In this document: one piece after another, positions 48,500 through 53,650 of the stretch | Layout: each line of letters starts with the position of its first letter | Position numbering within the stretch: the stretch's first letter is position 1 | DNA from: Candidatus Bathyarchaeota archaeon | GTDB lineage: Archaea > Thermoproteota > Bathyarchaeia > Bathyarchaeales > Bathycorpusculaceae | Length of the DNA stretch: 64,000 nt | NCBI GenBank assembly: GCA_026014705.1 | Contig: JAOZHU010000031.1 | Coordinates: 1-64,000, forward strand | Reading direction: 5' to 3' | Program-made: the position numbers and the translations under genes | The notes under the pieces: model-generated | Seen by the model: only the letters and a program-made list of their open reading frames with translations | Database searches by the model: none | What the model was told of the DNA's origin: nothing

Positions 48500-50914
48500 T
48501 TAACTTTCGGTCTTCACTTTTCCTTCAGATGGTAACGCTTGGAAGTCTCGGAGTTTTTCAGCCATTGCACTCAGCTGCTTATCAACAAGGTAGTTCACGG
48601 TTCCATACTCGAACGTTCCGTCAGCCCGTCTTTCGCCTGCCTTGAAGCCTGTGAGCACCTCAATGCCTTCGTCAATGGTTTTGACCGCGTAAATGTGGAA
48701 TTGACCTGCCTTAACGGCTTCTACGATTTCTTCTTTCAGCATCAGGTTTTGCACGTTGCTGTCAGGTATCATCACGCCTTGCTGACCAGTAAAACCTTTA
48801 GCCTTGCAAATTTCGAAGAACCCCTCGATTTTTTCGTTCACGCCGCCTATGGCTTGCACTTCGCCTTTCTGGTTGACTGAGCCAGTCACAGCGATGCTTT
48901 GCTTTATGGGCAAACCTGAAAGCGCTGAAAGTATCGCGTACAATTCTGTGCTTGATGCGCTGTCGCCTTCCACGCCAGCATAATTTTGTTCAAAAACAAG
49001 CCTGGCGGAAAGGCTAAGCGGTTTGTCCCTTGCGTATTTCTCGTTGAGGTAACCGCTTAAGATTAGGACGCCTTTCGTGTGGATGGGACCACCCATTTTT
49101 GCTTCGCGTTCAATGTCGATTACACCTTCTCTGCCTAAGCCTATGCTTGCGGTTACGCGTGACGGGTTGCCGAAAGCGAAGTCGCCTAGCCCCATGACTG
49201 AGAGCCCGTTCACTTGTCCAACTTTCTCGGCGTCTGTGTCTATTAGGATTACGCCTCGTTTTATCATTTCTTGAATTTTCTCTTGGATGAGTTTGGAGCG
49301 GTAGATTCTTTCTTCGATGGCTTTTCTCACGTGTTTCCCAGTTGAAAGCTTGGAGTTTTCTTGTGCAGCGTAGAAGTTGGCTTCACGCACGATGTCGGCG
49401 ACCTCAGCGAACCGCGTGGAAAGTTTCTGCTGGTCGCCTGCAAGTCTTGAGCTGTATTCGACGAGTTTAGCTAAGCCTGAGCCGTCGAGGTGTTTCAGGT
49501 TTTCTTTTTGGCAGAGGGTGCAAACGAAAGCAGCGTAGTGCTTCACGTTTTCTTCTGTGCGAGCCATGGTTGTGTCAAATTCAGCTTTAACCTTGAAAAG
49601 TTCAATGAAATCCATATCCAAGCTGTACAGTTGTTGATAGAGGAATGGGTTGCCGATGAGGATTACCTTGACATTCAGCGGAATTGGCTGAGGCTTCAGA
49701 CTTTTGGTGCTGATTAGTCCATAGCGGGCTTCCAGTTCTTCTATGGCTATGTTTCCGCTTCTGAGCGCTCGCTTCAAGCCGTCATAAGCAAAGGGGTTTC
49801 GAAGCAATTCTTCAACTGGAACAATCAGATACCCATTATTGGCTTTATGCAGGGCTCCTCCGCGAATCATGGTAAAATCTGTAACGAGCGCGCCAAGCTG
49901 CACTTCTTTTTCTGTTCTGCCGAAAAGATTCTGGTAAGTGGGGTTAGGTTCAATCACCACCGGAGCGCCTTTAATGCTCGAGTTGTCAACGACCACGTTT
50001 ACTTCGTATTTCTTGAATGGTTCTTCTTTCATCCAAGGTACAGGAAACGGAAGTTGCTGTGGCTCCGTTGGTTTCACGAATTGTGCGAGATTATCCAAAA
50101 TGTCGTTTTGCACATCCCGCAGGTAAGCTGTAACATCAGGCGTGCCTCTATACTTCTCAATTAGTGCGTTCACCAAGTGACCAATAGCATAGAGAGCGAT
50201 GTCTCGGTTGAGTTTTTTCAGTTCTTCGCGGACTTTTTGCTCCATGTCCAAAAACTGCCGCATAGTGTTTCTCAACTCTGCCTCCAAGCGGTCTCTTTTC
50301 TCTTGAATTTCGTCTTTCGCTTTCTGAGACAGGCTTAGTAACTCTTCTTCGCTGAGAGGCTTGCCCTTCACCACGGGGATAAGCAGTAAGCCGACTTGGG
50401 TGCTTTGGATTACGAAGCCTTCCTTTTGGGCTTTTGCGTTGAGTTGGTCGATTAGTTCTTTACGCTGTTTTTCCAGCACGCGTATTGTGGCTTCTCGTTT
50501 CATGTTGTAATCGTCGCTTTCAAAAGTTTTAGGGAGCGCTATCCGAATGTTTTCGATAAGGTTCTTAACGTCGCTTTGGAACTCTTTTCCCTTTCCCGGA
50601 GGCAGCGTTATGGCTTTGGGCTCGTACTGGTTGGAAAAGTTGTTTACGTAGCACCAATCTGGAGGCACAGGTTCAAGGCGGGCTATTTCTTCCACAAAGT
50701 TCTTGACAGCGGTGGTTCTGCCTGTTCCTGGATAACCTGCAATGTAAATGTTAAATCCTGTCTCCCGGATGCTCAAGCCGAATTTAAGCGCTCTGACGGC
50801 TCTTTCTTGTCCGATGATTTCTTTTAGGGGCATCAGTTCCTGAGTGGTTTCGCAACGCATGAAGTTGGCGTCGCATTCTCTTCGGAGTTTTTCGGCAGGT
50901 AACTCATTTACCAT
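48500..50914 (-). CDS. Lon-family ATP-dependent protease (AAA_32 type)
   Basis: About 804 residues. The N-terminal ATPase has a modified Walker A, GYPGTGRTT, with Arg for Lys as usual in this family. A helical coiled-coil region at about 165-260 (KAKDEIQEKRDRLEAELRN) and ALHKANNGYLIVPVEELL follow. The C-terminal Lon protease domain has Ser in EGDSASSTEL and Lys in NQKGEVQAIGGVNEKIEGFF. This differs from the membrane-bound archaeal LonB; the family is mostly bacterial, so transfer is possible. ATG 50914 has GGTGA six bases upstream; the GTG at 50923 is within that site. Confidence 0.9.
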   Translation of the reverse strand: MVNELPAEKLRRECDANFMRCETTQELMPLKEIIGQERAVRALKFGLSIRETGFNIYIAGYPGTGRTTAVKNFVEEIARLEPVPPDWCYVNNFSNQYEPKAITLPPGKGKEFQSDVKNLIENIRIALPKTFESDDYNMKREATIRVLEKQRKELIDQLNAKAQKEGFVIQSTQVGLLLIPVVKGKPLSEEELLSLSQKAKDEIQEKRDRLEAELRNTMRQFLDMEQKVREELKKLNRDIALYAIGHLVNALIEKYRGTPDVTAYLRDVQNDILDNLAQFVKPTEPQQLPFPVPWMKEEPFKKYEVNVVVDNSSIKGAPVVIEPNPTYQNLFGRTEKEVQLGALVTDFTMIRGGALHKANNGYLIVPVEELLRNPFAYDGLKRALRSGNIAIEELEARYGLISTKSLKPQPIPLNVKVILIGNPFLYQQLYSLDMDFIELFKVKAEFDTTMARTEENVKHYAAFVCTLCQKENLKHLDGSGLAKLVEYSSRLAGDQQKLSTRFAEVADIVREANFYAAQENSKLSTGKHVRKAIEERIYRSKLIQEKIQEMIKRGVILIDTDAEKVGQVNGLSVMGLGDFAFGNPSRVTASIGLGREGVIDIEREAKMGGPIHTKGVLILSGYLNEKYARDKPLSLSARLVFEQNYAGVEGDSASSTELYAILSALSGLPIKQSIAVTGSVNQKGEVQAIGGVNEKIEGFFEICKAKGFTGQQGVMIPDSNVQNLMLKEEIVEAVKAGQFHIYAVKTIDEGIEVLTGFKAGERRADGTFEYGTVNYLVDKQLSAMAEKLRDFQALPSEGKVKTES

Positions 50915-50998
50915 TTTTTTCACCCACAGCGCCCACTATTCAAAGCAGTAATAGGCAATTAACTCTTAAGCTGTGGGCGTTTTATATTCTTCGGTCAG

Positions 50999-51544
50999 TC
51001 AAAGCGCATTAACAAACCGCTGTATGATTTCTTTGTTCCTGACTTCCGGATGGAAAAGCACGCCGTAAATCTCTTTACGCTTATGCTTTATCGCTTGGAT
51101 ACAAGTTGCGGACTCCGCTAGTGCATCGAACTGCGGGGAAAGTTGAACTGAGTAATTGTGCAATGCGTAAGCTTTAAATGAAGAAGAAAAAAGCGGATTA
51201 GCCCTCAGCGTTGACACTTGCACCATGCCTATCTCCCAGCATTTTTCCAGCCTTGCACCGAAAACTACGCCTATGGTTTGCATGCCTGCGCAAATTCCCA
51301 GAATCGACTTGCCACAGTCCTTCATCCACTCGAACTTGTCTGGCTGACTCAGAGTGACGTTGTCTTTAAGCGCGGTGCCTGATAAGATGATTTTGTTGCA
51401 GTTGCGAATATCTTCTTGCGTCACTTCGAGATAATGTCTCACGACACAGTTTTCGATTTCTTCAGCGATGGCGAGTATGGGCGCGACAAACTCATAGACC
51501 CCCAATGAATCCCTCTTGAAATTCATGTCTACAACCAGAATCAT
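50999..51544 (-). CDS. Class I glutamine amidotransferase (GuaAa-like)
   Basis: 181 residues with a complete triad: Cys85 in GICAGMQ and His165-Pro-Glu167 in GVLFHPE. It frees ammonia from glutamine for a partner synthetase. It resembles the GATase subunit of archaeal GMP synthase, but the SGGP oxyanion-strand motif is SGTA here, so it is diverged. Its ATG overlaps the stop of the upstream diphthine-ammonia ligase by four bases (ATGA). No GMP-synthase PP-loop subunit lies nearby. Confidence 0.82.
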   Translation of the reverse strand: MILVVDMNFKRDSLGVYEFVAPILAIAEEIENCVVRHYLEVTQEDIRNCNKIILSGTALKDNVTLSQPDKFEWMKDCGKSILGICAGMQTIGVVFGARLEKCWEIGMVQVSTLRANPLFSSSFKAYALHNYSVQLSPQFDALAESATCIQAIKHKRKEIYGVLFHPEVRNKEIIQRFVNAL

Positions 51545-52221
51545 TTAGCCACCAACCGTGCCTGCTTGATTTTGAAAATTCCAGAGTTGCCCTTCGCGTC
51601 CACTTCGCTGTCTAAGATTTCAATTTTCTTTTTGAACAAAGGCGCATCTAAAACGGTTGTCTCTATTTCACCGCCCTCGCCTGAAGGGCTTAATCCGAAC
51701 GTTTTTTCCAACTTTAACAACTTGCCGATTAGCTCCGTGTTCAATTCTTTGCCGAGCCAGCTTTTGTCCAGTGGGTAAGCGAAAACTCCTGAGATAACCA
51801 CTTTGAAGCGTTGAGCCAAGATCTCTTCCAGCAACGCTTTCTGGTTTCTCTGCCACAATGGGTTAAAACACCAAACGTCTAAGCGGCTGCATATGCGTTG
51901 GATGCGCTCGGCTTGATACACTGATTCTACAGCGCCTGAAACTACTCCTTCTATGCCGAAGGCTTTTGTGGCTTGCACTATTGCTTCTTCTAAATCCTTA
52001 AGCTCTGCTTCTGGTTTTCCCGCGGTTGTTTTTTGAATTATGGGCAAGCCAAGGGCTTCAGCCTGCAGCGTCGCGATGCTTATGTTTGGCGTGTGAAACA
52101 TGAAGCTTTCCTTGTTTTCCGAAGCCAAAGTTATTAGGCACTCTACTTCTTCCTTCTCTGCGGCCTTGTGCAATGCAAGGGTGGAATCTTTTCCGCCTGA
52201 AAACAAAACACCAAGTTTCAT
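51541..52221 (-). CDS. dph6: Diphthine-ammonia ligase (Dph6-type PP-loop ATPase)
   Basis: Amidates diphthine on elongation factor 2, the last step of diphthamide synthesis. 226 residues: PP-loop SGGKDST at 8-14, SGAVESVYQAERIQRIC, NPLWQRNQKALLEE and GEGGEIETTVLDAPLF are all Dph6 signatures. The known enzyme takes free ammonium. Here a glutamine amidotransferase gene overlaps it downstream. Confidence 0.88.
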   Translation of the reverse strand: MKLGVLFSGGKDSTLALHKAAEKEEVECLITLASENKESFMFHTPNISIATLQAEALGLPIIQKTTAGKPEAELKDLEEAIVQATKAFGIEGVVSGAVESVYQAERIQRICSRLDVWCFNPLWQRNQKALLEEILAQRFKVVISGVFAYPLDKSWLGKELNTELIGKLLKLEKTFGLSPSGEGGEIETTVLDAPLFKKKIEILDSEVDAKGNSGIFKIKQARLVAK

Positions 52222-52465: not shown

Positions 52466-53650
52466 TTAAACTCTGACATTGCAGATGTTTTCTATTCCTT
52501 TCAGAGTCTTTATGATTTCAGGCGTAACTCTAGTGTGCAGCACGTAGACGGAAACTGCATAACCGCTTTTGCCTATTTGCCGCGAGTAGTTTGCGCGTAT
52601 GTTTATGTCGTTGTCAGCCAGCACCTTGTCTATTCTTGCAAATACGCCGGGCACATCACGGTGATGAATGAATAATGGATAAACGGGTTTTTCTTCCACC
52701 TCAAGGCTTTCGCCAGCGTTCACGGCGTTAGTAAAGTCGCCGCCCAATAGGTAACCTGAAATTACTCTGGCAATCTCGATGGAGGTTTCTCGTTGGGCTT
52801 CAATGGTCGAAGCGCCCAAGTGAGAGCTGAAGACAACATTGTCAAGCTCACGCAGTTTGTCTCTGAACTCGGCGCCTTCCACTTTTGGCTCTTCTGGGTA
52901 AACGTCAAGCGCAGCACCTGCGATTCTCTTTTCTTTTAAAGCCCTGTACAATGCCGGCTCATCCACGTTAGCGCCTCGCGACATATTGATGAGATAAGCA
53001 GTGGGCTTCATCAAAGCCAGTTCCTCCTCGCCAACGATAACCGCTGTTCCACCAGTGTGAATGCTCACGTAGTCAGCGTTAGACAGCACTTCTTCTTTAG
53101 ACAAGAATTTTATTTTTGCTTCAGGGCAAGGTTTTACGTCGTAGCCTATGACTTCCATGTCAAAGCCGCGGCGCGCCAGTTCAGCGACGCGCTGACCAAT
53201 TTTTCCACAGCCCAAAATGCCCAAGATCTTGTGAGAAATCTCGGTTCCCTTCAGCCTCTCTTTCACCCACACGCCGCTTTTTAGTGATTGGTGCGCCTGG
53301 GGAACGTTTCTTGAAACGCTCAACATCAAGCATATGGTTAACTCTGCAACCGCATTCGTGTTTCCATAGGGCGCGCATTTCACGATTATGCCGTTGTCAG
53401 ACGCCGCGGCCACATCAATATTGTCGTAGCCGACGCCTGCCCTGCCAATGATTTTCAAGTTACCCTTGGCGCCTGCCTCGATTACTTCTCGGGTGACTTT
53501 GGTGGCGCTGCGCACAATCAAAGCGTCAAACTCGGCAATGTCAGCCGCAAGCGCTTTTGGATCTCTCTTTTTAACATCCGTTTTTATGTCAAACTCTTCC
53601 AGTAACTGGATGCCTTCCTTTTCTAAACCATCGTTTAACAGTACTTTCAT
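52466..53650 (-). CDS. serA: D-3-phosphoglycerate dehydrogenase
   Basis: First step of serine synthesis from 3-phosphoglycerate. 394 residues. Substrate domain (IVRSATKVTREVIEAG), NAD-binding GILGCGKIGQRVAELARRG, catalytic Arg and Glu regions (MSRGANVDEPAL), and His in VFSSHLGAST. The C-terminal about 70 residues form an ACT domain (HHRDVPGVFARIDKVLADN), which usually binds serine for feedback control. The extra intervening domain of the long form is missing. It is 24 bases downstream of glyA, in one operon. Confidence 0.93.
   Translation of the reverse strand: MKVLLNDGLEKEGIQLLEEFDIKTDVKKRDPKALAADIAEFDALIVRSATKVTREVIEAGAKGNLKIIGRAGVGYDNIDVAAASDNGIIVKCAPYGNTNAVAELTICLMLSVSRNVPQAHQSLKSGVWVKERLKGTEISHKILGILGCGKIGQRVAELARRGFDMEVIGYDVKPCPEAKIKFLSKEEVLSNADYVSIHTGGTAVIVGEEELALMKPTAYLINMSRGANVDEPALYRALKEKRIAGAALDVYPEEPKVEGAEFRDKLRELDNVVFSSHLGASTIEAQRETSIEIARVISGYLLGGDFTNAVNAGESLEVEEKPVYPLFIHHRDVPGVFARIDKVLADNDINIRANYSRQIGKSGYAVSVYVLHTRVTPEIIKTLKGIENICNVRV

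Follow-up and report, generated by a model that had tools for sequence, protein, structure and literature searches.

A class-I glutamine amidotransferase overlapping archaeal Dph6 as a candidate subunit of a glutamine-dependent diphthamide synthetase

An overlapping gene pair found in the window, a stretch of 64,000 nucleotides from a Candidatus Bathyarchaeota genome, very probably encodes a two-subunit, glutamine-dependent diphthamide synthetase, as judged from sequence comparison. The pair joins Dph6, the diphthine-ammonia ligase, to a class-I glutamine amidotransferase (GATase). This reading had been suggested in an earlier note on the same DNA, and it is now the best supported one owing to the conserved pairing, the natural fusion of the two proteins and the presence of a separate full-length GMP synthase (GuaA) in the genome. 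It is further based on the gene identities, the conserved overlap, a two-domain structural model, residues particular to the linked form of Dph6, the diphthamide pathway of the host and the independence of the pair from GMP synthase. We infer glutamine hydrolysis, the transfer or channelling of ammonia and EF-2 as the acceptor from the known chemistry of the families involved. The annotated features are listed in Table 1.

Table 1. Features of the Dph6-GATase pair in the window and small reading frames found within related pairs.
Feature	Location	Strand	Basis
Dph6 (diphthine--ammonia ligase; synthetase subunit, N-type ATP pyrophosphatase), 226 aa	51541..52221	-	TIGR03679, PF01902, phmmer
Class-I (Triad) GATase subunit, 181 aa	50999..51544	-	PF00117, GuaAa structures, own clade
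ATGA start/stop overlap of GATase and Dph6, 4 nt	51541..51544	-	Sequence; recurrent in relatives
GATase Cys85 catalytic codon (LGICAGMQ)	51290..51292	-	Sequence; codon reads Cys
GATase His165-Pro-Glu167 codons (FHPEV)	51044..51052	-	Invariant in 30 class sequences found without motif bias
Dph6 PP-loop SGGKDS, residues 8-13	52183..52200	-	Sequence and family match
Dph6 signature EGGEIE, residues 182-187	51661..51678	-	Motif separating Dph6 from DUF71-B12 proteins (rule: PMC3541065)
DUF3977 ORFs, three DPANN genomes	L076:5763-6017, L085:5735-6004, L106:5741-6004

The gene pair and its conservation

The two reading frames, their overlap and their family matches were all confirmed. The start codon of the GATase (ATG, 51544-51542) and the stop codon of Dph6 (TGA, 51543-51541) together read ATGA, from which translational coupling of the two genes may be inferred. 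The Dph6 protein passed the TIGR03679 cutoff (272.1 bits against 197.3), scored 233.5 bits with PF01902 and matched PH1257 (2d13, E 5e-53) and PF0828 (3rjz, E 6e-48) in phmmer searches. The EGGExE signature is present (as GEGGEIE) and not the ENGE[FY]H motif of DUF71-B12 proteins. The GATase passed the PF00117 cutoff (61.2 bits against 22.8) and combines the class-I fold with a Cys-His-Glu triad formed by C85, H165 and E167. The intact triad described in the earlier note was thus recovered, with the His165 codon at 51050-51052 and the Glu167 codon at 51044-51046 translating as claimed. A phosphoglycerate-dehydrogenase-like gene (52466-53650) lies upstream of the pair and a Lon-like protease gene (48500-50923) lies downstream.

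Conservation of the pair had been set beforehand as a test, and the pairing held in all 30 loci read from the same class, in 79 of the best 80 loci of a wider scan and in fusions of the Methanothrix lineage. A clear full-length orthologue of the GATase was found in about 32 of the 257 class genomes, own genome included, with 35-66% identity, and it overlaps Dph6 by 4 nt in 30 of the 30 loci read. The second survey used a GATase-only pattern (G[VC]LFHPEV) on 84,980 species genomes, of which the best 80 loci were kept; these belong to Bathyarchaeota, Methanomicrobiales, Methanothrix, ANME-2, Thermoplasmata, Altiarchaeales, Theionarchaea and many DPANN groups, and the closest ones in named genomes are from Candidatus Bathyarchaeota MAGs. 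A Dph6 homologue was observed upstream on the same strand in all but one of them, and the exact 4-nt overlap occurs in 63 of the 78 unfused loci. The overlap is not due to chance because it recurs both in these loci and in every class locus read, that of the pair itself being one of the 30. The two sets share some genomes, and the conservation of His165 and Glu167 in the scan set is partly built in by the search pattern. This bias does not touch the adjacency to Dph6, and the class set came from a sequence search.

Dph6 and the GATase are separated by other genes in a few DPANN genomes. A small DUF3977 ORF (PF13122) was found between the two genes in three DPANN genomes, where it overlaps the start of the GATase. 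In genus g51, a gene for an ARMT1-like damage-control phosphatase (PF01937) was observed directly 5' of Dph6 (L182:5487-6392), and it occurs at the matching position in six other loci (L181, L184, L185, L186, L248 and L249).

Linked and fused forms, predicted structure and host genome

The linked GATases form one clade separate from GuaA and GuaAa (support 97/99), and the GATase of the pair shares about 32% identity over 99 residues with the GuaA of its own genome. Three residues were found to mark the linked Dph6 proteins when compared with 20 unlinked ones from the same class: Gln108 (98% against 0%), Pro150 (94% against 0%) and Asn120 (96% against 10%), a contrast that is confounded with phylogeny because the two groups also separate in the tree, where the split has weak support (73/20). 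The three glutamates of the EGGEIE signature are present in all 130 linked Dph6 proteins. Nine sites of Dph6 have been proposed to face diphthine or EF-2 (PMC3541065), and eight of these are identical in the Dph6 of the pair, the exception being Tyr45, which is Phe40 here. Among the linked proteins, six of the nine sites are identical in 99% or more while the rest vary conservatively in most.

Natural fusions of the two proteins occur in the Methanothrix lineage. The GATase was found in 45 of 238 genomes in the class of Methanothrix, many of them within reading frames 400-490 aa long. The complete sequence was read for thirteen fusions, in which a single ORF runs in the order Dph6-linker-GATase with measured linkers of 29-57 aa. 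The fusions form a single group of single origin in the Dph6 tree, nested among the overlapping pairs. Two fusions that are 66% identical to each other were folded with AlphaFold2 using alignments A4 and A5 (GATase identities near 40%); a third alignment (A3), in which fusions were combined with many Dph6 and many GATase sequences, placed GATases on the Dph6 half and was excluded. Both models gave a pTM of 0.90 (mean pLDDT 92.9 and 90.7), a value suggesting that the two domains are placed relative to each other with confidence. Each domain matches the solved relative expected of it, with a TM-score of 0.95 between the Dph6 domain and PH1257 and of about 0.79 between the GATase domain and a GuaAa.

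The host genome (1.99 Mb, 44 contigs, 96% complete; the pair lies on contig C32) contains four PF01902 proteins, and only the Dph6 of the pair exceeds the 197-bit Dph6 cutoff (149, 96 and 107 bits for the others). The EGGExE motif is likewise confined to it. One paralogue (L002, G000:C4:141448-142095), located between ABC-transporter ATPase-like and cobT-like genes, carries GENGEFH, as does a second (L003, G000:C4:93604-94212), and the third (L004, G000:C26:5445-6125) carries EDGRGFH; the ENGEFH of the first two is the DUF71-B12 motif described previously (PMC3541065). Dph2 (PF01866, E 3.6e-83) and Dph5 (TIGR00522, E 1.3e-90) are both present, and EF-2 carries VHEDPVHRGPAQ, the diphthamide histidine included; the genome is therefore expected to make diphthamide. 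By sequence, the Dph6 of the pair is the sole good candidate in this genome for the last step of the pathway. Among the 20 genomes tested, Dph2 was found in 19, Dph5 in 18 and an aEF-2 with HEDxxHRGP(A/G)Q in 18.

A second EF-2 paralogue was also observed in the host (G000:C33:57573-59681, L183), in which NENAECCNPVEI replaces HEDPVHRGPAQ and the diphthamide histidine is absent. The same His-less paralogue occurs in L179, L180, L184 and L185, and in genus g51 it lies close to the Dph6-GATase pair in divergent orientation.

Loss of the subunit and alternative explanations

The GATase is, on comparative sequence grounds, an accessory and dispensable subunit that appears to have been lost several times and to be kept without its cysteine in some lineages. 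Eight genomes of the same family have a linked-type Dph6 without a GATase, with LonB and/or SerA nearby in most of them as in the locus of the window. These Dph6 proteins nest among the linked ones, which fits losses, gain and loss being not strictly separable in an unrooted tree. The catalytic cysteine is kept in 97 of 110 homologues and is replaced by G, S or D in the other 13 (about 12%), which amounts to some five changes along the tree; glutaminase activity is therefore not always required. In genus g51, neither this cysteine nor His129 is present in any of the seven GATases read, and two further genomes of the genus have kept the linked-type Dph6 with the GATase gene gone. Dph2 was found in 10 of 11 genomes of this genus and a canonical EF-2 in several. 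A single g51 genome (G175, assembly 95% complete) had no detectable Dph2, Dph5 or canonical EF-2, only the His-less paralogue being found, and it still holds Dph6 with a Cys-less GATase (L179, L181). A link between cysteine loss and loss of diphthamide, as hinted by this genome, was rejected since it fails for the genus as a whole.

The GATase might be a GMP synthase subunit A that stands next to Dph6 by accident. GuaAa is its closest characterised family, as GMP synthase subunit A ranks first among its NCBIfam matches and profile A2 matched solved GuaAa structures with an E-value of about 1e-23, and a stand-alone GuaAb-like GMP synthetase subunit of 310 aa without an adjoining GATase is encoded elsewhere in the genome (G000:C4:187598; L012:823-1755). 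However, the NCBIfam score of 73.7 bits is far under the cutoff of 198, and the GATases form their own clade and are fused to or overlap Dph6, not GuaAb. Whether the genome has GMP synthase genes apart from the pair, a question raised in the earlier note, was answered by a complete fused GuaA of 514 aa (706 bits) on another contig, so the GATase is not the sole subunit A; the other PF00117 proteins, identified by sequence and neighbours, are TrpG, CarA, HisH and PurQ. In addition, the GMP-synthetase C-terminal domain was not found in 18 of the 21 DPANN genomes that have the GATase, a count of which incompleteness of the MAGs may explain some but hardly all. The full GuaA, the separate clade and the DPANN result led us to reject this identity, which is exceedingly improbable.

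It is very improbable, too, that the two proteins form a glutamine-dependent two-part amidase acting on something other than diphthine, e.g. a corrinoid as proposed for DUF71-B12. PF01902 is not isofunctional, since four members occur in this genome alone with one of them beside cobT, and G175 retains the pair where Dph2 and Dph5 were not found. Against this, the protein of the pair alone of the four exceeds the Dph6 cutoff. Its motif is EGGExE instead of ENGE[FY]H, and it retains eight of the nine predicted diphthine-site residues; such a reading would also leave a genome that has Dph2, Dph5 and the EF-2 histidine with no good Dph6 candidate. A mainly structural or regulatory GATase, for instance one that senses glutamine or nitrogen status, with ammonia as the real nitrogen source, would account for the repeated loss of the cysteine while the subunit and its E18-F19-V20-x-P22 motif are retained. 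This explanation is very improbable as about 88% of the homologues keep the cysteine, His165 and Glu167 are invariant in the class set, and the two g51 genomes without the gene suggest decay of the Cys-less form more than a new role.

Proposed mechanism and relation to known systems

In a glutamine-dependent diphthamide synthetase, Dph6 would use ATP to adenylate the diphthine carboxylate on the EF-2 histidine, giving an acyl-adenylate in line with what is known of Dph6-family chemistry. The GATase subunit would dock on Dph6 and hydrolyse glutamine with its Cys-His-Glu triad, and the ammonia passed to Dph6 would attack the adenylate there to form the amide of diphthamide. The division of labour would be that of GMP synthase subunits A and B. 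Carbamoyl-phosphate synthetase I of the ammonia type keeps a GATase part without the catalytic cysteine and takes free ammonia as its nitrogen source; it may serve as a model for the Cys-less GATases, although its synthetase is unrelated. The simplest account is that Dph6 would likewise presumably fall back on free ammonia where the cysteine or the whole GATase is gone. The ATPPase subunit of M. jannaschii GMP synthase works with ammonium (PMC10526850), an example which indicates that synthetases of such type can take either nitrogen source.

As the earlier note had pointed out, a PP-loop protein paired with a GATase is the plan of GMP synthase. The two-subunit enzyme of Methanocaldococcus and Pyrococcus (GuaAa and GuaAb) has the same layout, in which a class-I GATase with the same fold and triad feeds a PP-loop ATP pyrophosphatase, whereas its synthetase family and acceptor are different and its GATase belongs to a separate clade. 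The GATase is N-terminal in fused GuaA but C-terminal in the Dph6-GATase fusions. The Dph6 of the pair resembles the described archaeal Dph6 (TIGR03679; PF0828/PH1257) in fold, PP-loop, EGGExE signature and diphthine-site residues. For the described proteins, however, free ammonium is the assumed nitrogen donor and no class-I GATase serves as a dedicated subunit, and Q108, P150 and other residues of the linked form are absent from the unlinked Dph6 proteins sampled.

The ammonia source of Dph6 has been proposed to vary (PMC3541065). The same study described AsnB(GAT-II)-DUF71 fusions in Methanohalophilus, Methanosalsum and Nanosalinarum, in which the GATase domain was predicted to feed Dph6; these contain a class-II GATase and a second PP-loop domain and were reported in a few archaea, whereas the pair described here is a direct two-part unit with a class-I GATase and is widespread. 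In yeast and plant Dph6, C-terminal YjgF/RidA domains were suggested as the ammonia supply (PMC3585130, PMC3541065), but these are eukaryotic and are enamine/imine deaminases unrelated to the GATase. Only the AsnB and RidA cases were found in the open-access literature, to which our search was confined, and no earlier description of a class-I GATase partner for Dph6 or diphthamide was found there.

The nitrogen source of Dph6 and the completeness of the enzyme were left open when Dph6 was identified, and a reviewer of PMC3541065 remarked that DUF71 proteins might not be the sole subunits. The GATase is a concrete and widely conserved candidate for such a subunit, and the natural single-chain Dph6-GATase fusion can be directly expressed and assayed. 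A broader proposal, which we regard as speculative and unlikely, is that the GATase ties the completion of diphthamide to glutamine or nitrogen status in much of Archaea, with the Cys-less forms acting as sensors or scaffolds and elongation being tuned by glutamine. Many archaeal genes with the appearance of a GMP synthase subunit A, those of DPANN genomes without a GMP synthetase among them, probably serve diphthamide synthesis.
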